DNA from: Forficula auricularia | Taxonomy: Eukaryota > Arthropoda > Insecta > Dermaptera > Forficulidae | Direction: 5' to 3' | NCBI GenBank assembly: GCA_024734495.1 | Contig: JALMQS010000816.1 | Span: forward strand, 5,481,171-5,545,170 | DNA length: 64,000 nt | Shown here: positions 9,285 to 56,530 of the stretch, piece by piece | How the letters are laid out: each line of letters begins with the position of its first letter | Position numbering within the stretch: the first letter of the stretch is position 1 | Position numbers and translations under genes: made by a program | The notes under the pieces: model-generated | What the model was told of the DNA's origin: nothing | Database searches by the model: none | The model's input: the letters and a program-made list of their open reading frames with translations, nothing else

Positions 9285-9854
9285 GGTTTCAAAACGGTAG
9301 TTATGTCTCGTTTTTTTCCGTTTTGCAATTGTGTTGTATTATCGTTAAATTATAGTCGCAAAGATTATAAAGCAACCGTTACAAAAAGGTTGTCGCCAAC
9401 ATTTTTGTCACCGATTTGCAACTGTTTATTTATAATTTTATATTTCTTTGATTTGTTTAATATAATGAATAATTACACAATTCTTTAATAATATACAATA
9501 ATCAACATTATCCGCTTTCCTATATATATAATGTTGATTATTGTATATTATTAAAGAATTGTATAATTATTCATTATATTAATCAAATGAAAGAAATATA
9601 AAATTATAATGAAAGCAAAGATTTAAGTATCTTTTTTAGGTGTCTTTTTTGAAAAAAGATGGAAGGAAATTATTTCAAAATATAAATTCATTTATTAATA
9701 AAATTATAAATAAACAGTTGCAAATCGGTGACAAAAATATTGGCGACAACCTTTTTGTAACGGTTGCTTTATAATCTTTGCGACTATAATTTAACGATAA
9801 TACAACACAGTTGCAAAACGGAAAAAAACGAGACATAACTACCGTTTTGAAACC
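9285..9854. mobile_element. Foldback MITE, family C, 570 bp
   Basis: The left arm runs from GGTTTCAAAACGGTAG to about 9523 and the right arm from about 9528 to CTACCGTTTTGAAACC. Both carry AAAGCAACCGTTACAAAAAG and GCGACTATAATTTAACGATA or its complement. The right arm has about 95 bp extra at roughly 9612-9706, a later insertion or a left-arm deletion. The open frame at 9303-9488 lies in an arm. Confidence 0.85.
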
Positions 9855-10079: not shown

Positions 10080-10405
10080 CAAACATATTTAGTTCCCAAG
10101 GCAATATAATGCTGTGATACAAAAATCAACCGCCAAAAATGGAGATGAGAGCAAAAATGCAAATTTTAAGCCTTTAGACCTACCTGAACCAAATTTTCTA
10201 CTCTTAATCTGTGAACTTCTAGAAGAGATGAAATGTAAAAACCAACGACCCAAAATGGGAGAAGTGTCAAAAATAAAAATTCTAAGCTGTTAGACCTAAA
10301 TGAACCAAATGTTGTACACTTACTACATGTGCCTTTAGAAAACTTAAAAGTGAAAACCACCCACCCGAAATGGGTGGGGGGTGAAAATTATAACCCTTTG
10401 AACCT
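10080..10405 (+). repeat. Tandem ~95-bp units of Helitron-interior type
   Basis: Three degenerate units share the pattern 'cccaaaatggg..g.gtcaaaaat.aaaattctaagc...agacctaaatgaacc'. The same pattern occurs at 26510-26720 and inside the Helitron at about 39005-39250. This suggests a decayed Helitron, although no termini are visible nearby. Confidence 0.6.
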
Positions 10406-15477: not shown

Positions 15478-15761
15478 TCATCATCATCATCATTGAGTAT
15501 ACAGTCCTAAGACTGGTTTGATGCAACAATCCGTCTCCACTCGACTCTGTCCCCCGCCAGCTGTTTGACCTCTCTAAATGTCTGGCATCCCATATCCCCA
15601 ATTATTTGGTTGAAATATTCTAATCTGGATCTTCCCCTTCCCCTTTTCTTTCCCACCTCCCCCTCCAAGATATCCCTAAGCAGTCCCCCATGTCTCAGTG
15701 TGTGCCCCATCATCTGACCTCTTCTCTTCTTCAGACTCTTCCACAAGGTTCTTCTTTCTCC
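15478..15761 (-). mobile_element. 5'-truncated LINE insertion with 10-bp TSD
   Basis: A 284-bp insert on the minus strand ends in a (ATG)n tail (CATCATCATCATCAT on the plus strand at 15478). It is flanked by the perfect duplication GATTTTTACA at 15468-15477 and 15762-15771. Tailed, 5'-truncated insertions with target-site duplications of about 10 bp result from target-primed reverse transcription. Confidence 0.92.
15507..15746 (-). pseudogene. C-terminal fragment of LINE reverse-transcriptase polyprotein
   Basis: The 79-codon frame is the C-terminal tail of a non-LTR retrotransposon ORF2 of the kind often annotated as endonuclease-reverse transcriptase in insects. Recognisable pieces are RRGQMMGHTLRH, KKRGRGRSRLEYF and DRVEWRRIVASNQS, the typical 'GH.LRH...GKRGRGRPR..W...R..W..' ending. 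The frame closes just before the (ATG)n tail. The endonuclease and polymerase domains are absent because of 5' truncation, so it is a dead copy. The first Met is not a real start. Confidence 0.85.
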
Positions 15762-16200
15762 GATTTTTACAAATTTTATAGAATTTTCTAAGATATTTAA
15801 TATATTTTTATAAAATGTTGCTTTCGAAAAAATGAATGAACTTTTTGAAAAAGTTTTTGAAATTTTATAATATTTACAAACTGAATAAAGTTTTTTCCCT
15901 AGGTAAATAATCCAAATTTTCAGTAATTTGATAAAATTCTATTAAATTTCGTGAAATTTCTTAAAACTGCATCAAATAAGTTAATTAATTTTCTTTAGCA
16001 AAATATAAAATTTTATAAAAATCTATCAAATTTTATAAAATTTCATAAAATGTGTTAGAATAATAAAACAATATCTTGAAACACAACAGCAGAAAATTTT
16101 TCATAGAAATTCGACGCTTATTTATATTTTAAAAGAGAAAGAATTCAATCAATCTTTTTCAGACAAATTCTAAGATTTTAGTAGAAATATTATTAAATTG

Positions 16201-29378: not shown

Positions 29379-29919
29379 ATTGAAAGTAATGGAAGGCAGC
29401 CCAGAGGTAGTGAGGAAAAAAAAATTAACACATATAAAATAAGGTGTAATTTATTGGAATCCTTCCTCCTTTCCTTTCAAACCGACGTTTCGGAGGATTT
29501 CCCTCCTCCTTCAGGGTTTCAAAGGGTCAATGAATGAAACAAATAAAATGTTTCCTTCTTCTCTCCACAGTAGTGTTCAAAAACTTTCTTCATTTGTAAC
29601 AAAAGGCATAGAAAGACAAATTTTTTTTCCTTCTTTTCTTAATTAATTAATCTAATAATTAAGAAAAGAAGGAAAAAAATAATTTGTCTTTCTATGTCTT
29701 TTGTTGCAAATAAAGAAAGTTTTTGAACACTACTATTGAGAGAAGAAGGAAACATTTTATTTGTTTCATTCATTGACCTTTGAAACCCTGAAGAAGGAGG
29801 GAAAATCCTCCGAAACATCGGTTGAAAGAAAGGAGGAGGATTCCAATAAATTACACCTTATTTTATATGTGTTAATTTTCCTCACTACCTCTGGGCTGCA
29901 CCTCCATTACTTTCAATTC
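29379..29919. mobile_element. Foldback, family H, with CCGACGTTTCGG block
   Basis: About 540 bp, arms 29379-29650 and 29655-29919, ends ATTGAAAGTAATGGA and TCCATTACTTTCAAT. Both arms carry AAACCGACGTTTCGGAGGA and CTTCAGGGTTTCAAAG or complements. The right arm reads CTGAAGA, GGAGG, loop, CCTCC, GAAAC. The 72-codon frame at 29761-29979 is in this arm. The centre is AATTAATTAATC. Confidence 0.85.
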
Positions 29920-32699: not shown

Positions 32700-33080
32700 T
32701 GTTTATCATAAAATAATTTAGTCTTATTGATTTTAAGTCGATTCTTCCACGTTTTCAGTAGAGCTTGCCATTAATAGTTAAAACATCAAAAATGGAATGC
32801 AAAAGGTTATTCCTCTAGTATTAGATAAGAATCGATCGTTATTTTTGATTTTAAGTCGATTCCTCCATGTCTTCAGCAATGGTTACCAATAATAATCGAA
32901 GGGTCAAAAATCTAATGTAGAATTGTTATTCCTCAAGTATTAGATAAGAATCGATTGCTATTTTTGATTTTAAGTCGATTCCTCCATGTCTTCACCAATG
33001 GCTACCAATAAAAACCGAAACGTCAAAAATCGAATGTAGAATTGTTATTCCTCGACTCTTGAATGAGAATCGATCATTAT
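32700..33080 (-). repeat. Three ~119-bp repeat units inside the Helitron
   Basis: Inverted relative to the large array at 43670-45550. Shared words on the minus strand include GATTCTTATCTAATACT, GAGGAATAAC and GAATCGACTTAAAATCA. The flank AACAACTCAAGCTTGAGAAT recurs at the right end of the large array near 45048. Confidence 0.85.
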
Positions 33081-33100
33081 TTTTGAAATAAAGTCAACAT

Positions 33101-37964: not shown

Positions 37965-38160
37965 CGTGTTTCTCAACCATTTTTGGTTGACGGGTACACT
38001 AAAAATATCTGGAATCATTTGCGGCACACCTAAATATAAAAAAGTAAAAGTTGTATGATACAAAAAAAATGAAGTAATTACTAATACTATTTCCAAGTAA
38101 CAAAACCCATGCAATTTTATTTATTTGTCAAAAACCCTCACGGCACACTGGTTTAGAGAG
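37965..38160 (-). mobile_element. hAT fragment related to 14022-14925
   Basis: CGTGTTTCTCAACC, GGGTACACTAAAAATATCTG, ATTTGCGGCACACCTAAATA and CCCTCACGGCACACTGG follow the ends of the complete element in inverted order, with about 700 bp of interior missing. Confidence 0.75.
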
Positions 38161-38379
38161 CCCAAAAACTAATCAGTTCTTTGCATTGAAAATATAAAAA
38201 TTTTGCTACAGAACAAATTTTCTAAGACGATTTCTTTTATGAATTTAATTTTTCTATTGAATGATAAAAATGAAGAAAAAATTAAAACTTTTCCACGGAC
38301 CAGTACATTCGCCAGTTAGAAAAAGTATTTTTTTTCACATTATTATCTGAATTTTATTGAAGTTCAATTAAATGTTTGC

Positions 38380-38580
38380 TCTCTCTATAACGAGTATAAT
38401 TTTGATTCAAGAGCAAAAGACCATTCCTAGAATAATACAAATTAAAAATTGAATATTTAATAGTCTGAACAAGTCTTGACTTGTATTTCGTTCGCTTTAA
38501 AGGAAGAAGTTAGATAATTCTATCCGGACCCTTTTTAATTATTTTCCTCGATCGGATTCTAATGACTCGGGTCGCTAGAT
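38380..38580 (-). repeat. Dispersed repeat, family F, minus strand
   Basis: Inverted relative of part of 24570-24860, sharing CCATTCCTAGAATAATA, ACAAGTC..GACTTGT and TTTTCCTCGATC..ATTCTAATGA. Confidence 0.6.
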
Positions 38581-38592
38581 ATGCCGTAGTAA

Positions 38593-39763
38593 TCTATATC
38601 TATATATATAAAATTAAGGTTTTTTCTGTACATTTCTCCAAATCACGCCAAATTTTGGTTGCACACGTTTCAAGCAAAGTTATGAACGAAAACACCCTCA
38701 ACAAAATTCTTGTCTGTATGTCTGTCTGTTTGTCTGTTTGTCTGTCTCCGTCGTTTCCGAAAAGTTGCTCACGATTCACGTAAAAACAGGTGAAGGGATT
38801 ATTATGAAATTTCATATTTTGATCAGATGTCTTCTAACTTACGTTTATAGATATGTAACGTTTTGATATTTTGACCCCAAAAGGGGTTTGGGGGGCGCAA
38901 GAATGAAAATTATCAAATAACTCCTAAACTATCAACTCTACGGCAAATTGTATAATGAACAAAGTTGTAGGGGATGTGATTTCTAACAATTTTTGTTTAA
39001 AAAATTCCCCCGAAAAACCACCCAAAAAGGGGGGAGGGTGAAAAATATGTAAATTCTTGCCCTTGGAGCAAACTCAACCAAATTTTGTATACATCATCTG
39101 TGGGCCTCTAGAGAGCTAGAAATGCAAAAAATAACCACGCAAAATGGGGGAGAGGGTCAAAAAATGAAAATTCTTTCTCTTTGACCAAACTCAACCAAAT
39201 TTTGTATACATAATCTGTGGGTCACTAGAAGGCTAGAAATGCAAAATCTGGGGGGTGCGGGGGTCGAATGGGTGGAGTAAGAGAGTAAGGCGGAGTAGGG
39301 GGTGCAGGTGGTGGAGTGGGGGTCCAGGGTTGTACTTGGGGGGTCCATTGGGCTAAGCGGGGGTGGGCGCGTGGGGTGCAGGGCTGGTGGAATGGGGGGT
39401 TCAGGTGAGGGTCCAGTGGCGTAGTGCGGTGGGGGGTTCAGGATGGAGTGTTGGGGTGGTGGTGTGGGGGCGGGTTTCGGCACGGGTGCATGGTGCGGGG
39501 GTGGGGGGTGCTGGGTGGGTTTCAGGGGGGAGTGGGGTAGGAGGTTGGGGTTCGTGGTTTGGTGGTACGAGATGGAGTGTTGGGGCAGTGGTGTGGGGGC
39601 GGGAGTTGGGCACGGGTGCATGGTGTGGGGAGTAGGGGTGCTGGGTGGGTTTCGGGGGGTGTGGTGGGTGGGAGTGGAGTGTGAGTGTGGGGTTCGTGGG
39701 TTGGGGATCCAGGGGCGTGCCCCTGGCTATAAGAGGACCGCCGAAGGCGGGCCTTGCAGCTAG
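38593..39763 (+). mobile_element. Complete non-autonomous Helitron, 1171 bp
   Basis: It begins TCTATATCTATATATATAAA, preceded by A (38592), and ends GCCTTGCAGCTAG, followed by T (39764), the expected A-T insertion site without duplication. The 3' hairpin CCGCCGAAGGCGG lies at 39738-39750, 9 bp before CTAG. A second hairpin, CCAGGGGCGTGCCCCTGG, is at 39709-39726. The interior holds a (TCTG)n stretch, two or three ~110-bp AAATGGGGGAGAGGGTCAAA units (39005-39250) and a G-rich block (39250-39705). No Rep/Helicase, so it would need an autonomous partner. Confidence 0.9.
39250..39705. repeat. G-rich minisatellite-like block inside the Helitron
   Basis: Strand-asymmetric GGGG-rich DNA with larger repetition: ATGGAGTGTTGGGG..GGTGTGGGGGCGGG..GGCACGGGTGCATGGTG appears twice about 130 bp apart (39440-39510 and 39571-39627). 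Long frames on both strands here (for example 39157-39621 minus, proline-rich) reflect stop-poor composition and are not genes. G-quadruplex formation is plausible. Confidence 0.85.
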
Positions 39764-39773
39764 TTAATAATAA

Positions 39774-40702
39774 ACTTAAGGTAGTTGTTTCACCATATGG
39801 GTTTTCTTATGATTTTTTTGAAATCTTGATATTATTTAAATATAGTACTTCTGCATCGATTGGTGGCAAAATGAAATTTATGAACAATATAGTTCCAGAG
39901 ATATTAAATTCCAAAGATAGAGTTTTTCAGACTCTTATACATTGGACTATACGAGATATTACTCGGAAAGTTTACATACATATATAATTATAATTAAGAA
40001 ACTTTTCTTACCATTGTTATAAAAAACTAAACAAACATTAAACAATAACTAATGGGGGGTCAGATAGGCTAGGCGGTAGCGTGACAGCGAGCTAACCAGG
40101 GGACCCGGGTTCGAATCCGACTCGAGGCAACCAGCTAAAATCTACAGGGGGTAGAGACAAATTTTCAAAAAAAAAAAAAAATATATAACTAGTATCGTAA
40201 TTAGGCTTATGGCTAGAAAGGCCGAAAAGCCAAAAAAAAAAAAAAAAAACAATAACTAATACATTTTTTAAGAAAATTTAAATTCATAGTTACAACATAA
40301 TTTCTGAGATAATAATTAATAAATAATGAAAAATGTGTAATAACAAATTTACTCTAAAAACAAGCTGGCAACAACGCATGTATTTAACCTAAAAAGTGGT
40401 TTTTAGTAATTTTTTTAGTTTTTTTCGTTTCAGCCATTGTCGCAACAGTTTTCAATCGCTTATTAAGAACTTTTTATTTTATATATTTTCCTTTATAAAT
40501 GTAATTTATCTGACATTTCCATTATAAAATATATACAAGCTCGGACAGTGTTGCCATATTTGTCAAACGAGCACGGAATTGGCTAGTAGTGGTATATAAA
40601 CAGCAAAAGTCTTGGGCTTATGAATTATGAATCGTTATTGTATGTTCTATATACTCTAGCATTAACTTTTTGCTAGTATTGTCGCGAAGCAACTACCTTA
40701 AA
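39774..40702. mobile_element. Inverted-repeat element, family J, interrupted by a SINE
   Basis: Left CTTAAGGTAGTTGTTTC and right GAAGCAACTACCTTAA are inverted repeats. The right end is preceded by GTCGC as in the family member at 56878-57334. The element hosts the SINE at 40054-40247. A 77-codon frame at 39754-39987 begins in the Helitron end and is unrecognised. Confidence 0.65.
40054..40247 (+). mobile_element. Full-length tRNA-like SINE with 13-bp TSD
   Basis: Flanked by AACAATAACTAAT at 40041-40053 and 40248-40260. The head contains an A-box-like TAGGCTAGGCGGTAGCG and a perfect B box GGTTCGAATCC (about 40109-40119), the internal RNA polymerase III promoter of tRNA-derived SINEs. An internal A-run follows at about 40168-40180, then a short hairpin-like tail (TTATGGCTAGAAAGGCCGAA) and a terminal A-run. 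Perfect duplications suggest recent insertion. A LINE partner would supply retrotransposition. Confidence 0.92.
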
Positions 40703-43669: not shown

Positions 43670-45550
43670 ACCTTTGCTGAAGACATAGAGGAATCGACTT
43701 TAAGCAAAAAATAGCGATTGATTCTCATCTAATACTTGAAGAATAACCATTCTATATTGAATTTTTGACGTTTCGGTTTTTATTGGTGACCATTTATGAA
43801 GACATAGAGGAATCGACTTTAAACCAAAAATAGCGATTGATTCTCATCTAATACTTGAGGAATAACCATTCTATATTGGATTTTTGACGTTTCGGTTTTT
43901 ATTGGTAACCATTGCTAAAGACATTTGAGAAATCGACTTTAAACCAAAAATAGCGATTGATTCTCATCTAATACTTGAGGAATAATCATTCTATATTGGA
44001 TTTTTGACGTTTCGGTTTTTATTAGTAACCATTGCTGAAGACATAGAGAAATCGACTTTAAACCAAAAATAGCGATTGATTCTCATCTAGTACTTGAGGA
44101 ATAATCATTCTATATTGGATTTTTGAAGTTTCGGTTTTTATTGGTAACCATTGCTAAAGACATAGAGAAATCGACTTTAAACCAAAAATAGCGATTGATT
44201 CTCATCTAATACTTGAGGAATAACCATTCTATATTGGATTTTTGACATTTCGGTTTTATTGGCAACCATTGCTGAAGACATCGAGGAATCGACTTTAAAG
44301 CAAAAATATCGATTGATTCTCATCTAATACTTGAGGAATAATCATTCTATATTGGATTTTTGACGTTTCGGTTTTTATTAGTAACCATTGCTGAAGACAT
44401 AGAGAAATCGACTTTAAACCAAAAATAGCGATTGATTCTCATCTAGTACTTGAGGAATAATCATTCTATATTGGATTTTTGACGTTTCGGTTTTTATTAG
44501 TAACCATTGCTGAAGACATGGAGGAATCGACTTAAAATAAAAAATAGCGATTGATTCTCATCTAATACTTGAGAAATATCCATTCTATATTGGATTTTTG
44601 ACGTTTCGGTTTTTATTAGTAACCATTCCTGAAGACATAGAGAAATCAACTTTAAACCAAAAATAGCGATTGATTCTCATCTAGTACTTGAGGAATAATC
44701 ATTCTATATTGGATTTTTGACGTTTCGGTTTTTATTGGTAACCATTGCATTTTATTGGTAACCATAGAGGAATCGACTTAAAATCAAAAATAGCGATTGA
44801 TTCTCATCTAATACTTGAGGAATAACAATTCTACATTAGGTATTTGACGTTTCGATTATTATTGGTAACCATTGCTGAAGACATGGAGGAATCGACTTAA
44901 AATCAAAAATAACGATCGATTCTTATCTAATACTAGAGGAATAACCTTATTGCATTCCATTTTTGATGTTTTGACTATTAATGGAAACCTCTACTGAAAA
45001 TGTAGAAGAATCGACTTAAAATCAAAAAGACTAAATTCTTTTTTGGTAAACAACTCAAGCTTGAAGGGGGGGGGGGGTCAGAGACCAGAGACGGTGCCCC
45101 CCACACACTAAATGTTTTTTTTTGCTAGGCAACGGGCCTCTATGGGGGGGGGCGATAGCCCCCCTGGATCCGCCCTTGATTGATTCTCATCTAGTACTTG
45201 AGGAATAATCATTCTATATTGGATTTTTGACGTTTCGGTTTTTATTAGTAACCATTGCTGAAGACATGGAGGAATCGACTTAAAATCAAAAATAGCGATT
45301 GATTCTCATCTAATACTTGAGAAATATCCATTCTATATTGGATTTTTGACGTTTCGGTTTTTATTAGAAACCATTCCTGAAGACATAGAGAAATCAACTT
45401 TAAACCAAAAATAGCGATTGATTCTCATCTAGTACTTGAGGAATAATCATTCTATATTGGATTTTTGACGTTTCGGTTTTTATTGGTAACCATTGCTGAA
45501 GACATAGAGGAATCGACTTATAATCAAAAATAGCGATTGATTCTCATCTA
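43670..45550 (+). repeat. Satellite of ~119-bp units, interrupted once
   Basis: About 14 units, with ATTGATTCTCATC recurring at 43717, 43836, 43956, 44075 and onwards, spacing 118-120 bp. Each contains GAGGAATAACCATTCTATAT, TTTTTGACGTTTCGGTTTTT and AATCGACTTTAAACCAAAAA. Two-unit patterns (CTAATACTTG versus CTAGTACTTG) alternate. It is broken at 45066-45178 by a transposon fragment and resumes to a (TA)n tract at 45550. Units at 44916-45060 match the Helitron repeats at 32700-33080, including the terminal flank. Confidence 0.95.
45066..45178 (-). mobile_element. Fragment of GGCGGATCC hAT-like element in the satellite
   Basis: A G-run at the left and CCCCCCTGGATCCGCCCTTG at the right match the end of 33101-33371. 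The opposite TIR is not visible. The satellite continues immediately after it. Confidence 0.6.
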
Positions 45551-45604
45551 TATATATATATATATATAAAACACACATATTCTGTCATTAATTTCAGTGT
45601 GTAT

Positions 45605-45745
45605 ACTTATTTTTTAATAAATTAACTTATTTTTTTAGGGAGACACAAAAACAACAACAAGCTGAGCGAAAGGAAAAAAGCAAAACTCAAAAAAGAGAAA
45701 GAAGGAGATAGCAAAATTTACACTATATTCATTTATTTATTTTAC
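45605..45745 (-). other. Possible intron and second exon of a minus-strand transcript
   Basis: Minus strand: donor TTAG|GTAAAATA at 45746/45745, then a pyrimidine-rich run ending TTTCCTTTCGCTCAG (acceptor near 45665), then a GTTGTTGTTTTTGTG-type sequence. The competing plus-strand reading gives acceptor TTATTTTTTTAG|GG and a Lys/Gln/Arg-rich frame (ETQKQQQAERKEKSKTQKRE) to TAG at about 45708. I cannot decide between them. Confidence 0.2.
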
Positions 45746-45815
45746 CTAAGATAAGCTTGCAGTGGTTAATATGATAATGGATGTTGGTTTTTGAAAATAG
45801 ATATGAGGCTTGGAT

Positions 45816-45845
45816 GTGAGGTGACGTGTGTTTGCTTTTATAGCA
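45816..45845 (-). promoter_or_regulatory. Candidate TATA promoter, minus strand
   Basis: TATAAAA (plus 45836-45842 as TTTTATA) is followed about 25 nt downstream on the minus strand by CTCACATC, similar to an arthropod initiator (TCAKTY). A donor-like TTAG|GTAAAA lies 70 nt further down. Spacing is right for a core promoter, but the motifs are short and could be chance. Confidence 0.3.
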
Positions 45846-46054
45846 ATGGTTTACTTAAATACTATTTCTTGAGTGGCGGGCGAATCTCAGGGTAGTCACT
45901 CTTAGTGCTTTTTCTGAAATTGATGGAATTTACTGTGAGTCACGTTACTAATTTTAGTGTAAAAATTAATAAAAAATTGATTAAGAATAATAAAAAACAA
46001 AATAAAATAATTTTAAAAGGAGGAATGTGAGATTTTCAACGATAATAAAGATTT

Positions 46055-46060
46055 TTTATT
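46055..46060 (-). terminator. Candidate poly(A) signal
   Basis: AATAAA on the minus strand, 5 nt after the stop codon of the open frame at 46065-46238. Expected for a terminal exon; common in AT-rich DNA. Confidence 0.3.
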
Positions 46061-46064
46061 AGAG

Positions 46065-46238
46065 TTATTTAAATTTTAATAATTTGAATTTGTTTTTATC
46101 ATTATTTGAATCGAAATAGAATGGATTATTACAGAAATTATTGTTTGAAGATTTGTTACACTTCTTGATGGGCTGAATTGTTAGAATCTCCTCTGGATCT
46201 TCTCCCTGTAACAATTTCCTCCTTTGGTAATAATTCAT
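46065..46238 (-). CDS. Candidate terminal coding exon, 57-codon open frame
   Basis: On the minus strand an ATG-initiated frame runs MNYYQRRKLLQ, then GEDPEEILTIQPIKKCN, then an Asn/Lys-rich tail to TAA at 46065-46067, with AATAAA directly after. A TTACAG|GGAGAA acceptor at 46206/46205 would start an exon in the same frame. The middle has acidic, Ile/Pro-containing sequence less biased than chance AT-rich frames. It lies exactly where the repeated array ends: upstream sequence is still module-like (TTCATTATATTA) and diverges inside this exon. No family recognised and the acceptor lacks a strong pyrimidine tract. A real last exon is plausible but unproven. Confidence 0.35.
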   Translation of the reverse strand: MNYYQRRKLLQGEDPEEILTIQPIKKCNKSSNNNFCNNPFYFDSNNDKNKFKLLKFK

Positions 46239-49200
46239 AATATAATGAAATTAAAGTATTTTTTATAGAAATATTCGGAATAAAATTGTATTTAATATAT
46301 TATTTATTTATTTATTTAATTGATCTTTTTTTGAAACTCGAAAAAAGTACTTGAAAAATTTACAGTATTTATTACTTAATCAATTATAAGAATAGGGTAT
46401 TATAAAGATATTTAACCTTTTCAGCCAACGTCTCGTGGCATGGACGTGGAATATTCTGACCCCACAAGAAGACACTATTAGACTTGCGAACTAGTAAAAA
46501 TATACTCGCGAAACATTTCGATTTCGAAGGAATAAGTATTTGTGAAAACAGGTTTGAAGTTGATTAGGATTAGGAATAGGACATGATTCTCTTGATAAAA
46601 GAATCATGAGCTCACGTGGGCAGGGATGCTAGGCCCTGAAGTAAGTTTGTATTTCTTTATCAAAAAGAACAAAGAAGTACACACCTATCCGTTACCCAAA
46701 GATAAAGAATTTGTTTTTCCATAAAATAAGAAAACCAAAGACTTAATATTAATGTTAGTAATAGAAGGTAGATCATCTACCTGAAAAAAGAAAAAATACT
46801 ATTATTAAAATAATATAATGAATTTAAAGTATTTTTTATAGAAATATTCGGTATAAAATTATATTTAATATATTATTTATTTATTTATTTAATTGATATT
46901 TTTTGAAACTCGAAAAAAGTACTTGAAAAATTTGCAGTATTTATTACTTAATCAATTATAAGAATAGGGTATTATAAAGATATCTTACCTTATCAGCCAA
47001 CGTATCGTGGCATGGACCTGGAATACTCTGACCCCACAGGAATACACTATTACACTCTCGAACAAGTAAAAATATACTCGTAAAAAAATTTCGATTTCGA
47101 AGAAATAAAGATTTGTTAAATCAGGGATTGAAGTTGGTTAGGATTAGGGATAGGACATGATTCTCTTGATAAAAGAATCAAGAGCTCACGTGGGCAGGGA
47201 TGCTAGGCCCTGAAGTAAGTTTGTACTTCTATATCAAAAAGAACAAAGAAGTACACACCTACCCGTTACCCAAAGAAAAATAATTTTTTTTCCATAAAAT
47301 AAGAAAACCAAAGACTTAATATTAATGGTAGTATTAGAAGGACGAGCACATAACTGAAAAAAGAAAAAAATACTATTATTAAAATAAAATAATGAACTTA
47401 AAGTATTTTTTATAGAAATATTCGGTATAAAATTATATTTAATATATTATTTATTTATTTATTTAATTGATATTTTTGAAACTCGAAAAAAGTACTTGAA
47501 AGATTTGCAGTATTTATTACTTAATCAATTATAAGAATAGGGTATTATAAAGATATCTTACCTTATCAGCCAACGTATCGTGGCATGGACCTGGAATACG
47601 CTGACCCCACAAGAAGACACTATTCAACTCTAGAACAAGTAAAAATATATTCGTAAAAAAATTTCGATTTCGAAGAAATAAAGATTTGTTAAATCAGGGA
47701 TTGAACTTGGTTAGGATTAGGGATAGGACATGATTCTCTTGATAAAAGAATCATGAGCTCACGTGGGCAGGGATGCTAGGCCCTGAAGTAAGTTTGTATT
47801 TCTTTATCAAAAAGAAAAAAGAAGTACACACCTACCCGTTACCCAAAGATAAAGAATTTGTTTTTCCATAAAATAAGAAAACCAAAGACTTAATATTAAT
47901 GTTAGTAATAGAAGGTAGATCATCTACCTGAAAAAAGAAAAAAATACTATTATTAAAATAATATAATGAATTTAAAGTATTTTTTATAGAAATATTCGGA
48001 ATAAAATTATATTTAATATATTATTTATTTAATTGATCTATTTTTGAAACTCGAATAAAGTAAATTTTTATAATTTTTCTAACTGATATGACAAAGAATA
48101 ATTGACCTATCAATAAGAAGTGTTTTGACAGCGCTTTATTTGAAAAAGATATTTTATCACGAGACTATTTCGGATTATGCTATTAAATTCTGTGGAGTCT
48201 TAAATCTGGACCAGGAGAGAAAAAAGATCTGATCAACTAAGCTACAATCAAACGTCATGTTTCGTATTATACGCAAAATTTCGAATAAAGTACTTGAAAT
48301 ATTTAAAGTATTTATTACTTATTGAATTACACTAGAAAATAAGTATAAATATACTCGTGAATCATTTCGATTTCGAAGGAATAAGGATCTGTGAATACAG
48401 GGATTGAAGTTGATTGCTAGGCCCTGAAGTAAGTTTGTACTTCTTTATCAAAAAGAACAAAGAAGTACAAACCTACCCGTTACCCAAAAATAAAGAATTT
48501 GTTTTACCATAAAATAAGAATACTGAAGACTTATTATTAATGTTAAAGTATTTTTTATAGAAATATTCTGTATAAAATTATATTTAATATATTATTTATT
48601 TAATTGATCTTTTTTTGAAACTAGAATAAAGTACTTGAAAAATTTACAGTATTTATAGAAAAGGTTATTATAAAGATATCTTACCTTATCAGCCAAACTC
48701 TCGTGGCTTGGACTTGGAATTATCTTACCACACAGGAAGACACCATTACACTAGAGATTAAATATAAATATACTCTCGAATCATTTCGATTTCGAAGGAA
48801 TAAGGATCTGTGAAAACAGGGATTGAAGTTGATTAGGATTAGGGATAGGGATAGGACATGATTCTTTTGGTAAAAGAATCATGAGCTAACGTGGGCAGGG
48901 ATGCCATGCCCTGAAGTAGGTTTGTACTTTTGTTATCTAAAAGAACAAAGAAGTACACACCTACTCTTTACCCCTTGATACAGAATTTGGTTTTCCATAA
49001 AATAAGAAAACCTTAGTCGTAATCTCAATGTTAGTATTAGAAGGACGAGCAACTACCTGAGGAATAAGGATCTGTGAAAACAGGGATTGAAGTTGATTAG
49101 GTTTAGGGATAGGACATGATTCTCTTGGTAAAAGAATCATGAGCTCACGTGGGCAGGGATGCCATGCCCTGAAGTAGGTTTGTACTTTTGTTATCTAAAA

Positions 49201-51975
49201 GAACAAAGAAGTACACACCTACTCGTTACCCATTGATAATGAATTTGGTTTTCCATAAAATAAGAAAACCTTAGTCATAATCTCAATGTTAGTATTAGAA
49301 GGACGAGCAACTACCTGAGTAATAAGGATCTGTGAAAACATGGATTGAAGTTGATTAGGTTTAGGGATAGGACATGATTCTCTTGATAAAAAAAATCATG
49401 AGCTCACGTGGGCAGGGATGCCATGCCCTGAAGTAGGTTTGTACTTTTGTTATCTAAAAGAACAAAGAAGTACACACCTACTCGTTACCCATTGATAAAG
49501 AATTTTGTTTTTCATATAATAAGAAAACATTAGTCGTAATCTCAATGTTAGTATTAGAAGGACAAGAAAATACCTGAGGAATAAGGATCTGTGAAAACAG
49601 GGATTGAAGTTGATTAGGTTTAGTGATAGCACATGATTATCTTGGTAAAAGAATCATGAGCTCACGTGGGCAGGGATGCCATGCCCTGAAGTAGGTTTGT
49701 ACTTTTGTTATCTAAAAGAACAAAGAGGTACACACCTACTCGTTACCCATTGATAAAGCATTTGGTTTTTCATAAAATAAGAAAACCTTAATCGTAATCT
49801 CAATGTTAGTATTAGAAGGAAGAGCAACTACCTGAGGAATAAGGATCTGTGAAAACATGGATTGAAGTTGATTAGGTTTAGGGATAGGACATGATTCTCT
49901 TGATAAAAGAATCATGAGCTTACGTGGGCAGGGATGCTAGGCCCTGAAGTAAGTTTGTACTTCTTTATCAAAAAGAACAAAGAAGTACAAACCTACCCGT
50001 TACCCAAAAATAAAGAATTTGTTTTTCCATAAAATAAGAAAACTGAAGACTTATTATTAATGTTAGTATTAGAAGGTAGAGCACCTACCTGGAAAAATAA
50101 AAAAAATACTATTAGTAAAATAATATAATGAATTTAAAGTATTTTTTATAGAAATATTCGGTATAAAATTATATGTAATATATTATTTATTAAATTGATC
50201 TTTTTTTGAAACTAGAATAAAGTACTTGAAAAATTTACAGTATTTATAGAAAAGGTTATTATAAAGATATCTTACCTTATCAGCCAAACTCTCGTGGCTT
50301 GGACTTGGAATTATCTTACCCCACAGGAAGACACTATTACACTAGAGAATAAATATAAATATACTCGCGAATCATTTCGATTTCGAAGGAATAAGGATCT
50401 GTGAAAACAGGGATTGAAGTTGATTAGGATTAGGGATAGGGATAGGACATGATTATTTTGGGAAAAGAATCATGAGCTAATGTGGGCAGGGATGCCATGC
50501 CCTGAAGTAGGTTTGTACTTTTGTTATCTAAAAGAACAAAGAATTACACACCTACGCGTTACCCATTGATAAAGCATTCGGTTTTTCATGAAATAAGAAA
50601 ACCTTAGTCGTAATCTCAATGTTAGTATTAGAAGGACGAGCAGCTACCTGAGGAATAAGGATCTGTGAAAACAGGGATTGAAGTTGATTGGGTTTAGGGA
50701 TAGGACATGATTCTCTTGGTACAAGAATCATGAGCTCACGTGGGCAGGGATGCCATGCCCTGAAGTAGGTTTGTACTTTTGTTATCTCAAAGAACAAAGA
50801 GGTACACACCTACTCGTAACCCATTGATAAAGCATTTGGTTTTTCATAAAATTAGAAAACCTTAGTCGTCATCTCAATGTTAGTATTAGAAGGACGAGTA
50901 ACTACCTGAGGAATAAAGATCTGTGAAAACAGGGATTGAAGTTGATTAGGTTTAGGGATAGGACATGATTCTCTTGATAAAAAAATCATGAGCTCACGTG
51001 GGCAGGGATGCCATGCCCTGAAGTAGGTTTATACTTTTGTTATCTAAAAGAACAAAGAGGTACACACCTACTCGTTACCCATTGATAAAGCATTTGGTTT
51101 TTCATAAAATAAGAAAACCTTAATCGTAATCTCAATGTTAGTATTAGAAGGACGAGCAACTACCTGAGGAATAAGGATCTGTGAAAACAGGGATTGAAGT
51201 TGATTAGGTTTAGGGATAGGACATGATTCTCTTGATAAAAGAATCATGAGCTCACGTGGGCAGGGATGCCATGCCCTGAAGTAGGTTTGTACTTCTGTTA
51301 TCTAAAAGAACAAAGAGGTACAAACCTACTCGTTACCCAAATGATAAAGCATTTGGTTTTTCATAAAATAAGAATACTGAAGACTTATTATTAATGTTAG
51401 TATTAGAAGGTAGAGCACCTACCTGGAAAACATAAAAAATACTATTAGTAAAATAATATAATGAATTTAAAGTATTTTTTATAGAAATATTCGGTATAAA
51501 ATTATATGTAATATATTATTTATTAAATTGATCTTTTTTGAAACTGGAATAAAGTACTTGAAAAATTTACAGTATTTATAGAAAAGTTATTATAAAGACT
51601 TACCTTATCAGCCAAACTCTCGTGGCTTGGACTTGGAATTATCTTACCCCACAGGAAGACACTATTACACTAGAGAATAAATATAAATATACTCGCGAAT
51701 CATTTCGATTTCGAAGGAATAAGGATCTGTGAAAACAGGGATTGAAGTTGATTAGGATTAGGGATAGGGATAGGACATGATTATTTTGGGAAAAGAATCA
51801 TGAGCTAATGTGGGCAGGGATGCCATGCCCTGAAGTAGGTTTGTACTTTTGTTATCTAAAAGAACAAAGAATTACACACCTACGCGTTACCCATTGATAA
51901 AGCATTCGGTTTTTCATGAAATAAGAAAACCTTAGTCGTAATCTCAATGTTAGTATTAGAAGGACGAGCAGCTAC

Positions 51976-52113
51976 CTGAGGAATAAGGATCTGTGAAAAC
52001 AGGGATTGAAGTTGATTGGGTTTAGGGATAGGACATGATTCTCTTGGTACAAGAATCATGAGCTCACGTGGGCAGGGATGCCATGCCCTGAAGTAGGTTT
52101 GTACTTTTGTTAT
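51976..52113 (-). CDS. Representative 138-nt candidate exon of the array
   Basis: Minus strand: acceptor CTCTTTGTTCTTTTAG|ATA at 52114/52113, 46 codons without stop (ITKVQTYFRAWHPCPREL.. to ..SQILIPQ), then donor CCTCAG|GTAGCT at 51976/51975. Phase is 0 at both ends and 258 = 138 + 120. Equivalent open copies: 49057-49194, 50648-50785, 50906-51043, 51164-51301, 53050-53187 and 53308-53445. Other modules are broken: in-frame TAG in the 'AGGCC' type (46.6, 47.2, 47.8, 49.9, 52.3 kb), TAA at about 49.63 kb, and 1-nt shifts near 49.40 and 53.65 kb. Trp, His, Cys and Pro are conserved. Family unknown. A second acceptor (TTTTCACAG) lies 15 nt before the donor, so a 15-nt micro-exon is an alternative. 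Confidence 0.3.
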
Positions 52114-52677
52114 CTAAAAGAACAAAGAGGTACACACCTACTCGTTACCCATTGATAAAGCATTTGGTTTTTCATAAAATTAGAAAACCTTAGTCGTAAT
52201 CTCAATGTTAGTATTAGAAGGACGAGCAACTACCTGAGGAATAAGGATCTGTGAAAACAGGGATTGAAGTTGATTAGGTTTAGGGATAGGACATGATTCT
52301 CTTGATAAAAGAATCATGAGCTCACGTGGGCAGGGATGCTAGGCCCTGAAGTAAGTTTGTACTTCTTTATCAAAAAGAACAAAGAAGTACAAACCTACCC
52401 GTTACCCAAAAATAAAGAATTTGTTTTTCCATAAAATAAGAATACTGAAGACTTATTATTAATGTTAGTATTAGAAGGTAGAGCACCTACCTGGAAAAAT
52501 AAAAAAAATACTATTAGTAAAATAATATAATGAATTTAAAGTATTTTTTATAGAAATATTCGGTATAAAATTATATGTAATATATTATTTATTAAATTAA
52601 TCTTTTTTTGAAACTAGAATAAAGTACTTGAAAAATTTACAGTATTTATAGAAAAGCTTATTATAAAGATATCTTAC

Positions 52678-52743
52678 CTTATCAGCCAAACTCTCGTGGC
52701 TTGGACTTGGAATTATCTTACCCCACAGGAAGACACTATTACA
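52678..52743 (-). CDS. Representative 66-nt candidate exon of long modules
   Basis: Minus strand: acceptor ATTTATTCTCTAG|TGT at 52744/52743, 22 open codons (CNSVFLWGKIIPSP..), then donor GATAAG|GTAAGATA at 52678/52677. Symmetric phase 0. The following 187-nt putative intron ends in TTACTAATAG, a T-rich tract and CCAG (52491), that is branch-like sequence, pyrimidine tract and acceptor. Equivalents: 48685-48750, 50276-50341 and 51604-51669 (donor GTAAGTC). Diverged relatives at about 46.45, 47.05 and 47.6 kb read NSVFLWGQ..IP.PCH. The next segment (52490-52399) encodes a related S-VFLFYGK pattern. No known family. Confidence 0.3.
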
Positions 52744-53840
52744 CTAGAGAATAAATACAAATATACTCGCGAATCATTTCGATTTCGAAGGAATAAGGAT
52801 CTGTGAAAACAGGGATTGAAGTTGATTAGGATTAGGGATAGGGATAGGACATGATTATTTTGGGAAAAGAATCATGAGCTAATGTGGGCAGGGATGCCAT
52901 GCCCTGAAGTAGGTTTGTACTTTTGTTATCTAAAAGAACAAAGAATTACACACCTACGCGTTACCCATTGATAAAGCATTCGGTTTTTCATGAAATAAGA
53001 AAACCTTAGTCGTAATCTCAATGTTAGTATTAGAAGGACGAGCAGCTACCTGAGGAATAAGGATCTGTGAAAACAGGGATTGAAGTTGATTGGGTTTAGG
53101 GATAGGACATGATTCTCTTGGTACAAGAATCATGAGCTCACGTGGGCAGGGATGCCATGCCCTGAAGTAGGTTTGTACTTTTGTTATCTCAAAGAACAAA
53201 GAGGTACACACCTACTCGTAACCCATTGATAAAGCATTTGGTTTTTCATAAAATTAGAAAACCTTAGTCGTCATCTCAATGTTAGTATTAGAAGGACGAG
53301 TAACTACCTGAGGAATAAAGATCTGTGAAAACAGGGATTGAAGTTGATTAGGTTTAGGGATAGGACATGATTCTCTTGATAAAAAAATCATGAGCTCACG
53401 TGGGCAGGGATGCCATGCCCTGAAGTAGGTTTATACTTTTGTTATCTAAAAGAACAAAGAGGTACACACCTACTCGTTACCCATTGATAAAGCATTTGGT
53501 TTTTCATAAAATAAGAAAACCTTAGTCGTAATCTCAATGTTAGTATTAGAAGGACGAGCAACTACCTGAGGAATAAGGGTCTGTGAAAACATGGATTGAA
53601 GTTAATTAGGTTTAGGGATAGGACATGATTCTCTTGATAAAAAATCATCAGCTCACGTGGGCAGGGATGCCATGCCCTGAAGTAGGTTTGTACTTTTGTT
53701 ATCTAAAAGAACAAAGAAGTACACACCTTCTCGTTACCCATTGATAATGAATTTGGTTTTCCATAAAATAAGAAAACCTATTCGTAATCTCAAATTCCTT
53801 AATATAACTCATGTAAAGTTGTTTATTATTGAGGTGTAGA

Positions 53841-53965
53841 GTCAGCTGAGAGGTAGGATGAAGTTGGAGAAGGTATATTGTAATACTCACAGTTGATGTT
53901 TCATCCGTCACTGGCTGATACTCACTTCCAATCTGCCTATCACTTCCACTTATATACTTACCCAT
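53841..53965 (-). promoter_or_regulatory. Candidate 5' end of the array gene
   Basis: Minus strand: TATATAA (plus 53950-53956), an ATG at 53965 opening MGKYISGSDRQIGSEYQPVT, a donor-like ACT|GTGAGTAT at 53891/53890 and an acceptor-like ACCTCTCAG|CTG at 53846/53845. The intron would be only 45 nt, very short. The frame also reads through unspliced for 88 codons (53699-53965). A second TATA-like TATATAAG is near 54102-54109. Boundaries are tentative. Confidence 0.25.
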
Positions 53966-54115
53966 CTCCCCACTCCAAAACCATTGTCCCTATTTCCCCC
54001 TACTCACTGTCCCTATCTCCTCCTCTCCAAAACATTGTCCCTATCCCCCCTCACTGTCCCTATCTTCTCCCCACTTTTCATTCTGCCAATTTCCCCCACT
54101 CTTATATACCCTTCG
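53966..54115. repeat. Pyrimidine-rich short repeat tract
   Basis: Plus strand: CATTGTCCCTAT and CACTGTCCCTATCT alternate four or five times with CCCC and CTCC spacers. It sits immediately upstream, on the minus strand, of the candidate array-gene start, as a purine-rich GGGACAATG / GGGACAGTG tract. Confidence 0.7.
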
Positions 54116-54204
54116 TGAACAATTAGTGAAAGCTATTCTTATCTTATCTTCCGTGATAATCTTAATCTGCTTAGTATTGTAATTATTTTACCTTGTTTAA
54201 CCCA

Positions 54205-54310
54205 CGCCATTCGATTTTCACTTATTACTACTAATTTTTTAACTGTTTTTAAAGCACTCTATTCGATTTTCACTGATCATTACTAATTATTTAGCAGTGT
54301 TTAAAAGTAC
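54205..54310 (+). repeat. Two-unit tandem repeat
   Basis: GCCATTCGATTTTCACTTAT..TACTAATTTTTTAACTGTTTTTAAAG and CTATTCGATTTTCACTGATC..TACTAATTATTTAGCAGTGTTTAAAAG are diverged ~62-bp copies. Confidence 0.6.
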
Positions 54311-54611
54311 TAGTGGTACTCATAAAGACCGATGAAAATCACACACTAATTCAATTGTTGATTCTCTTGTCTAGATTTAAATGATAGAAGATTTAAATAA
54401 AAAAAAATGATAAAAATTAATTAATATAGATTAAAAAATATTTATAACTAAAAATTAGATTATTTTACATAGCCCAAAAATGAATGAACGTACCTGAATT
54501 ATATTGATTTTTTAATGAGACAGATATCGGTAATTAATTGAGTTATTGAAACCTCAAAATATATTCGCTTTTACTATAAATACACATTCACACACACACA
54601 TGTAATATTAG

Positions 54612-54805
54612 TTGAAAATCGATGGCTATTTGTAATTTAAGTCAACATGAACTGCAAATAGTCAGTGATATCTGATTAATATTAAAGAAATATAAATATT
54701 AATAACAAATTTTAAATTTAGGGAACATTAGGGAATATTAATATTCCAAATGACTTCGGATAAAGTTTAGCAAGGATCCGTTGCAGTTTATTTTTTTACT
54801 CTAAT
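54612..54805 (-). mobile_element. Helitron fragment with unoccupied hAT site
   Basis: Collinear with 33060-33490: AAAATCGAT, AAGTCAACATGAACTGCAAA, GTGATATCTGATT, TATTAATATT and GATAAAGTTTAGCAA.GATCCGTTGCAG. The GTCAACAT target at 54641-54648 is uninterrupted. Confidence 0.8.
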
Positions 54806-55290
54806 AAATTTTTTTTAACTTTATACAGTTTTCCCAACCTCGCCTTTTTTATATTTCCACTCTTTGGGTTAAAAAACAGAAAAAATATATTTTTTCTTTA
54901 TTATAAATTTCCATCAATAATCTAATTAAAAACTAAATAAAACTGAAACTATTCATATTTAATTAATACTATTGTTTATATTAAGCCAATAAAAATAACA
55001 AATACTCATATTAGGCAAAAAAGTAAGAATCAGGTGAACGGACTATTGATTTGAACCACGGTCTAGGGTTAAAAGGTATAGTTGTTAATTAATTTTTTTT
55101 TATTTTCAAGACAGAAGGTAGTTTTTTCAGAGTAGGTTCCCCAATGAGTTCCATTGGGATTCCTCAGCAATTAGGATTGTAATGACTGATATTGAGTCTG
55201 TAGTACTGTAAGAACTAAAATTTATTGTAGTGAAAAATTAGATTAACTTTATTGTGCAAATGTACGGTACCTACTTATCTTCACTATAGA

Positions 55291-55705
55291 AATTATTGAG
55301 TGGATATTGATGAGGAAGTCCAAAAAAGAAGAAAATAATTTACACTATCTTTTTATTCATAAACCGACGTTTCGGAGGCTATTCCCTCCTTCTTCAGGGT
55401 TTTGAAAAGTCAGTGAAGGAAATCCAATGGGACATGGTCCCCTCTGTCTCCTCTTTCAGTGGCAGTAACAATAATATATTATATTTCATTCTCATCAGAA
55501 TTATAGTGTAGTGCTGAGAATGAAATACAATATATTATTGTTACTGTTACTGAAAAGGAGACCTAGAGGAATGTCGCATTGGATTTCCTTCACTTTCAAA
55601 GCCCTGAAGAAGGTCGGAATAGCCTCCGAAACGTCGGTTTATTAATAAAAAGGTAGTATAAATTATCTTCTTTTTTTGAACTGCCTCATCAATATCCACT
55701 CAATT
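55291..55705. mobile_element. Foldback with CCGACGTTTCGGAGG block, family H-like
   Basis: Arms 55291-55495 and 55505-55705, ends TTGAGTGGATATTGATGAGG and CCTCATCAATATCCACTCAA. Both arms carry the AAACCGACGTTTCGGAGGCT / CTTCAGGG block shared with 29379-29919, while the outer ends differ between the two elements. Confidence 0.85.
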
Positions 55706-56079
55706 TCACTTATCAGTCAGTCTCCAAAAATTACTTCAATCTTATAGAAATTATGATTTGTTAAATTATTTAATTTTATTTCGTAGTTATTTATTACCTA
55801 TATTATTTTATAAAATGTTAGTGGTTTCTTTAAAAAAAAGTGTGTATTTGTTTTGCGACTTGGAATTCGTTTAGGTAATAAGCATTCCATTTCATAGTGT
55901 TAGTAAATGGATAAAATGAGATAAAATATCGTCTGAAATAAATCGATGTCAACGACAGTGGTTTATGAATTATGCTCTTTAGGAAACGCCTGTCAACCCG
56001 AAACTATCACTCTCTTTCTTAAGTAATCGGTATTTCTTAAAGTAACACTTAAGTAACCGAATAGTGATGTGAGCTTTAC

Positions 56080-56330
56080 TTGTCCCAAAGGAGCAGTAGA
56101 CCGGAGCTGGATTGGTTTTTGGCCTGAGTGCTTCTATGGCATCTGGAGCGAGCGATCTCTCGGTTGCAAGGAATTGGCGGGGTGTTCGCGAGCGGAATAA
56201 TAATAACTTTGCAAGGTGGTGCAACCGAGATGAAGAACCAGGAATAGCATCGAGAAAGAGGAAAAAGGATAACCGCAAAAACAATAAGACCGCCAGGTAG
56301 CAGCACGCGTCTCACCGGGCATTCAATTCT
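56080..56330. other. GC-richer non-repetitive block with overlapping frames
   Basis: Includes GGAATTGGCGGGGTGTTCGC and AGCAGCACGCGTCTCACCGG. Four short frames overlap on both strands (for example 56112-56300 plus, 55979-56284 minus); none is recognised. Could be a conserved element or short exon. Confidence 0.25.
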
Positions 56331-56530
56331 CTTTTATCAATTGACGAACAATTATTTTGAAATTATTTAGAATCATCTTTTCAGAGAGAATATACTGAAA
56401 GATAATATTTAAGAATATCATATAAGTAGCCTGTTTAGTCCCCAATGTCTTTACATTTATTTATCTAGAAAAATCAAATTAAGAATTTCGGAAAATACCT
56501 AGAATTTTACTTTCTTTCAAAAACTTAAGT

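Follow-up and report, generated by a model that had tools for sequence, protein, structure and literature searches.

We analyzed a 64,000-nucleotide stretch of the Forficula auricularia genome (contig JALMQS010000816.1, forward-strand positions 5,481,171 to 5,545,170; hereafter the window), in which the minus-strand region 46240-53792 is a real tandem array of modules, about 7.5 kilobases (kb) long and composed of about 20 copies of one hairpin-bearing unit. An earlier interpretation made from the letters alone (the sequence-only reading) had described about 20 modules of 258 or about 555 base pairs (bp) at this place, and had taken them for a multi-exon gene, perhaps for a small secreted protein, growing by tandem duplication of exon-intron units. 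The modules were recovered as tandem units of 258-264 bp and 548-573 bp. We conclude, with a probability of roughly 0.6, that the locus is a satellite-like, non-coding array organized in higher-order units, and that its founder was probably a fragment of a gene or transposon that contained an intron. A protein-coding gene is not supported: neither codon-level selection nor a protein relative was found. Coordinates of the features are collected in Table 1.

The array contains 12 short modules (258 bp in seven, 259 bp in one, and 264 bp in four) and eight long modules, which measure 552, 548, 552, 419 (carrying a deletion), 703 (carrying an insertion), 573, and 573 bp, with the last cut off at the array end; complete long units span 548-573 bp. 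In the right part, the modules are ordered short-short-264-long, short-264-long, short-short-264-long, and short-short-short-264-long, the 264-bp unit always being the last of each run of two to four short units and standing directly before the long unit. Identity is complete among three of the four 264-bp modules and 96-99% among the four young long modules, and three old long modules are 88-92% identical to the young ones (the identity matrix does not include module 46539). The head-to-tail units and the homogenization between copies that mark a satellite are both present in the array. A short module equals a long module minus about 290-315 bp, namely the stretch between ATTCCT and CAGGTAG, and we therefore infer that the short unit arose from the long one by deletion or, less likely, the long unit from the short one by insertion. 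No further copies of the unit were found elsewhere in the window at E values up to 0.001, where a single 42-bp match from the flank was the only one returned. The insertion in the long module at 48388-47686 brings a strong acceptor-like site of its own at 48206.

Within the long modules lies a segment that looks like a true intron, as far as sequence features can suggest. It is bounded by both strong sites in five of the eight long modules (donors 10.3-11.9 bits, acceptors 10.1-13.4 bits), is 181-208 bp long, and has 14% G+C in the reference copy. Because of the strong donor and acceptor, this low G+C content, and an excess of donor-like sites on one strand, the founder was probably intron-bearing. 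When old and young long modules were compared (in an alignment that, for both divergence and codon tests, leaves out module 48388), divergence was 0.074 in the intron-like part, 0.115 in the next 92-bp part, and 0.067 in the hairpin-rich remainder, in contrast to 0.196 in the 57-nucleotide (nt) part (32% G+C) and 0.164 in the 66-nt part (44% G+C) of the putative exon. The putative exon has accumulated over twice the divergence of the intron-like part, the opposite of what purifying selection would leave, and the 123-nt part differs from the intron-like part in its proportion of variable gap-free columns (Fisher's exact test: P = 0.002). The unequal divergence of exon and intron halves expected of a gene was present, but its direction disfavors coding constraint.

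The two exons proposed by the sequence-only reading, of 138 and 66 nt, are indeed multiples of three. Twelve copies of the 138-nt segment end at CAG/GT, and only five are intact (stop-free, in frame, and with an AG acceptor), instead of the seven stop-free copies that had been claimed. If a 123-nt exon began at the strongest acceptor, each of the four young long modules would give it two in-frame stops, and two old modules would shift it by one base; the end module holds the only open copy among the seven examined. The putative exons carry one-base indels. Scores of 0.2 to 4.0 bits for the acceptors of the 66-nt segment compare with 8 to 13 bits for other acceptors of the array. Substitutions in this segment show no bias among the three codon positions (8/5/7), and in 12 old-young pairs the proportion of synonymous differences (pS = 0.150-0.192) is about equal to that of nonsynonymous differences (pN = 0.132-0.219), so the predicted excess of synonymous changes did not appear. 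Codon-level constraint was not detectable in the array by the test on the 66-nt copies, with about 13 synonymous sites per pair.

In database searches, the composite of predicted segments returned six candidate homologues, none at an E value of 1 or better, and a 77-residue frame of a short module returned none. The same database yielded 79 relatives (on short public contigs, with E values of at most 0.001) for a transposon-like frame at 15507-15938 (minus strand), which we take to be an insect-like retrotransposon end. No Pfam domain exceeded the cut-off in 10 frames from the window (subthreshold matches in two: Rz1 and F_actin_bund_C) or in six array-related frames (subthreshold matches in three, E = 0.18-0.24). 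Rfam 15 produced no match at the gathering score in the window, and five subgathering matches in 45500-54500 (E = 0.3-0.81). Searches for exact patterns (two in viral_contigs and one in genome_contigs) returned no stretches, and a literature search by subject rather than by sequence did not find the unit described. No open frame of at least 90 residues lies wholly inside the array on either strand; one, at 53699-53989, overlaps its right edge.

The flanks had been read as the two ends of a gene. Upstream on the minus strand, the TATA region is present in the form of three TATA-like motifs, and no evident signal peptide was seen by eye in 18 ATG-initiated frames of at least 20 amino acids at 53700-56500. 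At the other end, the open frame with its TAA stop and the polyadenylation-like motifs exist as described, but AATAAA is uninformative at a frequency of 3.1 per kb of the minus strand, and the terminal splice-like sites are weak (acceptor at 46206, 2.0 bits; last donor at 46417, 1.6 bits).

We then asked how far the splice-like sites exceed what copying alone produces. The splice matrices were consensus frequencies rather than a trained model, and null arrays were scored with the same matrices. The null arrays were rebuilt from shuffled units, with dinucleotide content, copy number, indels, and between-copy differences all kept; the first part of module 48388 was replaced with consensus, giving 7427 bases compared with 7553 in the real stretch. 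At the positions that the sequence-only reading listed, minus-strand GT donors and AG acceptors do recur in register. At strict thresholds, the minus strand of the array carries 48 acceptors and 63 donors and the plus strand 5 and 20, and a plus-strand gene was rejected on these counts. Among single units tested individually, donors exceed those of shuffles in three long modules (P = 0.001 or less) and two short modules (P about 0.02); for acceptors, the excess is confined to the two short modules (P = 0.005 and 0.0075), the three long ones giving P = 0.22 to 0.52. We counted as a qualifying length class any multiple of three that is bounded by AG and GT and is stop-free in at least four copies. 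At thresholds loose enough to admit the sites of the sequence-only reading, the real array has six such classes (39, 66, 69, 81, 87, and 138 nt), a number reached by 27 of 300 null arrays, whereas at least one class occurs in 220 of 300 and at least two in 154 of 300. The claim that such features would not stay together in a random satellite fails at this level because nulls with the same copy history reproduce the classes; at the strict level it retains force, as shown below.

Several results weigh against a purely non-coding, satellite-like array. The density of strong minus-strand sites is reached by shuffled arrays in 1 of 400 cases for acceptors and 0 of 400 for donors; six minus-strand control blocks of the same size contain 5-20 acceptors (48 in the array) and 7-14 donors (63 in the array); and control windows, which overlap one another, equal a short module in both counts in 0 of 554 cases and a long module in 2-5 of 552. 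This excess is the main remaining result favoring a spliced origin. At strict thresholds three 138-nt copies remain, and a class with at least three copies is found in 6 of 400 null arrays, while the total of such acceptor-donor pairs is reached by 7 of 400. The 66-nt segment is stop-free in all seven copies, of which three are identical, so that its openness extends further than the four copies originally reported. For the segment alone, the faster divergence drops below P = 0.05 in just five of the 18 pairs. Old-old pairs are mixed, one having pS = 0.148 and pN = 0.057 and another pS = 0.037 and pN = 0.124, and the codon test on these copies is weak because each pair offers only about 13 synonymous sites. 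As many copies of a 15-nt acceptor-donor segment as in the real array (see below) occur in 1 of 300 null arrays, and five or more in 3 of 300. Finally, compensatory changes were found at none of the 37 predicted pairs of the RNA consensus structure. The site excess, the strict 138-nt copies, the open 66-nt frames, and the 15-nt segment would fit a truly spliced transcript.

Under the satellite-like reading, these observations may be accommodated as follows. A unit of about 550-570 bp, bearing hairpins and probably once part of a gene or transposon with an intron, would have founded the array, and the 258-bp version would be the same unit shortened by deletion. The array probably grew by unequal exchange, with recent homogenization. 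The splice-like sites and short open stretches of the founder would have multiplied along with the unit, and for this reason they would look like phased exons. A homogenized repeat multiplies all signals of its founder, and the repeated phased sites therefore amount to about one observation rather than twenty. Of the proposed growth by tandem duplication of exon-intron units, the duplication is clear from the copy structure and one segment is intron-like, but the protein gene is unsupported. Calibration on shuffled arrays with the same copy history strips away much of the apparent evidence; the residual excess of strong sites and the frame-neutral 15-nt segment would bear on the origin of exon arrays or of spliced repeat RNAs.

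Variation across short and long modules together is lowest in the hairpin-bearing part, except for a 15-nt stretch (CCTTCTAATACTAAC) outside it. When 6 of 19 blocks were folded singly, z scores were -3.7 to -7.2 for the minus strand and -1.2 to -4.5 for the plus strand. A sample of 200 stretches of 160 nt from the window included 12 with z below -4, five of them in the array; the predicted folding of the block is thus unusual, yet not unique in the window. Stem columns are less often variable (11/74) than unpaired columns (24/70, P = 0.011), but this comparison is biased because the structure was derived from the same alignment. The predicted fold of 52249-52414 includes a near-perfect 23-bp stem; the short modules and old long modules that were folded have an imperfect one. 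One-base indels separate the first hairpins of short and long units. In the long module, the first hairpin (52346-52398, minus strand) starts with GTAGGT, ends with TTCAG, and has a mirtron-like outline. On the plus strand, 21 copies of TAGGGATAGG occur at 47145-53622, all inside the array and on that strand only, where 0.11 are expected in the window; this motif presumably resembles binding sites of heterogeneous nuclear ribonucleoprotein (hnRNP) A1.

Among alternatives to the satellite-like reading, a transcribed repeat RNA ranks first. The array could be a non-coding RNA gene, transcribed from the minus or the plus strand and perhaps spliced, whose hairpins or UAGGGAUAGG-rich plus strand would bind RNA-binding proteins in the manner of Drosophila hsr-omega; we regard it as unlikely. 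It would account for the strand-specific excess of splice-like sites, the intron-like segment of the long modules, the conserved predicted hairpins (z down to -7.2), and the minus-strand TATA-like motifs upstream. The 21 copies of TAGGGATAGG also point to it, but their number reflects the copying of one or two founding sites, and the hairpins lack compensatory changes. The hsr-omega precedent cuts both ways, in that the source describes 280-bp tandem repeats and long RNAs that sequester hnRNPs, but also places the repeats outside the intron of the gene (PMC9865238).

The 15-nt segment raises another possibility. All 12 short modules carry an acceptor (8.9-11.2 bits) and a donor (6.1-7.7 bits) 15 nt apart, and the array might be a micro-exon gene, convergent on the schistosome type, with 15-nt exons encoding five residues each (e.g., ILIPQ) and introns of about 243 nt, in which the deletion producing the short unit would have joined the acceptor segment to a donor. 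The rarity of equal counts among null arrays agrees with this, and most schistosome micro-exons are 15 bp long according to PMC10526429. However, the 15-nt class and its thresholds were picked after viewing the data, and the null count therefore overstates its weight; the donor is absent from this position in all eight long modules; the upstream frames show no evident signal peptide; no homologues were found; and the 15-mers vary at three positions, each with a residue change, a number too small for a test. That an AT-rich animal genome is building a micro-exon gene, its 15-nt exons made by one deletion and multiplied twelvefold, appears very unlikely. If it were so, each unequal exchange would add or remove five residues and never break the frame.

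More improbable still is the gene of the sequence-only reading, a small secreted protein expanding by duplication of 138- and 66-nt exons: the uniformly open 66-nt frame, the three strict 138-nt copies (6 of 400 null arrays), and the 46-codon terminal open frame speak for it, but the 138-nt segment is intact in just 5 of 12 copies, putative exons carry one-base indels, the 66-nt and terminal acceptors are weak, the codon pattern looks neutral, null arrays often hold phased segments at loose thresholds, and neither a homologue nor, in the frames tested, a Pfam domain above the cut-off was found. A small-RNA locus, in which the first hairpin of the long modules would be processed like a microRNA or mirtron, is scarcely credible, for its long near-perfect stem of 23 bp with GT at the 5′ base and AG near the 3′ end, and its weak matches to two microRNA families (E = 0.3-0.81), are offset by the position of those matches far under gathering scores and by the imperfect stem in the short and old long modules folded.

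Table 1 Positions of array features and flanking motifs in the window
Feature	Position	Strand	Remarks
Whole tandem array	46240..53792	-	Partial unit 53792-53581 precedes the module starts
Module starts, first ten	53580, 53322, 53064, 52800, 52248, 51990, 51726, 51178, 50920, 50662	-	
Module starts, second ten	50398, 49846, 49588, 49329, 49071, 48807, 48388, 47685, 47112, 46539	-	
Higher-order unit, example	52249..53580	-	Short 258, 258, 264 bp + long 552 bp
Older array end	46240..48388	-	Long modules only (703 with insertion, 573, 573, cut-off)
Intron-like segment, reference copy	52491..52677	-	AT-rich, 187 bp, 14% G+C; donor AAG/GTAAGA, acceptor TTTTTATTTTTCCAG
Intron-like segment, other copies with both sites	51603-51423, 50275-50089, 47561-47354, 46988-46781	-	
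66-nt segment	52678..52743	-	Stop-free 7/7, weak acceptors
66-nt segment, ends of other copies	51604, 50276, 48685, 47562, 46989, 46417	-	
138-nt segment	51976..52113	-	5/12 copies stop-free, in frame, with both splice-like sites
15-nt segment, example	51976..51990	-	Strong acceptor (TTTTCACAG) and CAG/GTA donor
Three-hairpin block, example (long module)	52249..52414	-	Predicted fold z -7.2 vs. shuffles; best-conserved module block
TATA-like motifs, two, upstream	54108-54101, 53956-53949	-	
TATA-like motif, third	54446-54440	-	
46-codon open frame directly beyond array	46205-46065	-	TAA stop
AATAAA/ATTAAA matches	46080-46075, 46060-46055	-	By terminal open frame

The surrounding window is AT-rich (25-40% G+C in 2-kb steps) and dense in tandem and inverted repeats. 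G+C rises to 40% at 38001-40000, together with strong GC skew and proline-rich frames on the minus strand. A 119-bp tandem repeat occupies 43670-45550 in two runs (11.4 and 3.1 copies), with an inverted relative of three copies at 32727-33086, about 11 kb away. Short tandem pairs with a 116-117-bp unit lie at 10121-10374 and 39016-39246 and are about 76% alike over 168 bp. The arms of an inverted pair, 9285-9441 and 9698-9854, are 98.7% identical, and between them 9441-9600 gave the strongest predicted fold of the 200 sampled stretches (z about -15); further strong folds were predicted near 29760 and 13760 (z about -11). A transfer RNA (tRNA)-related repeat was rejected, with zero tRNAs in the window.

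Four known systems invite comparison. Aphid bicycle genes have many small exons and diverge fast; the array is like them in gene shape only, and unlike them it has no evident signal peptide nearby, no search having been aimed at bicycle-type proteins. Davis and colleagues are said to have reported, in 1988, tandemly repeated 81-base exons in Schistosoma mansoni. Compared with schistosome micro-exon genes, the array lacks an evident signal peptide exon (by eye), yielded no homologue, shows a neutral-looking substitution pattern, and belongs to a different phylum, but likewise repeats short multiple-of-three segments between splice-like sites. The hsr-omega nonamer is ATAGGTAGG, for which the array has no match with up to one mismatch and no enrichment. 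Unlike hsr-omega, the array has its intron-like segments within the repeats; the two are alike in having tandem repeats of about 260-280 bp and an intron or intron-like feature. Satellites with higher-order repeats, some derived from tandem repeats internal to transposons, are described by Vondrak et al. (2019; PMC7004042). The array differs from these in being short (7.5 kb), in occupying one locus in the 64-kb window, and in having a founder with an intron-like segment and hairpins, but resembles them in its lack of a conserved reading frame, its head-to-tail units, its higher-order pattern, and its homogenized young part beside a diverged old edge.

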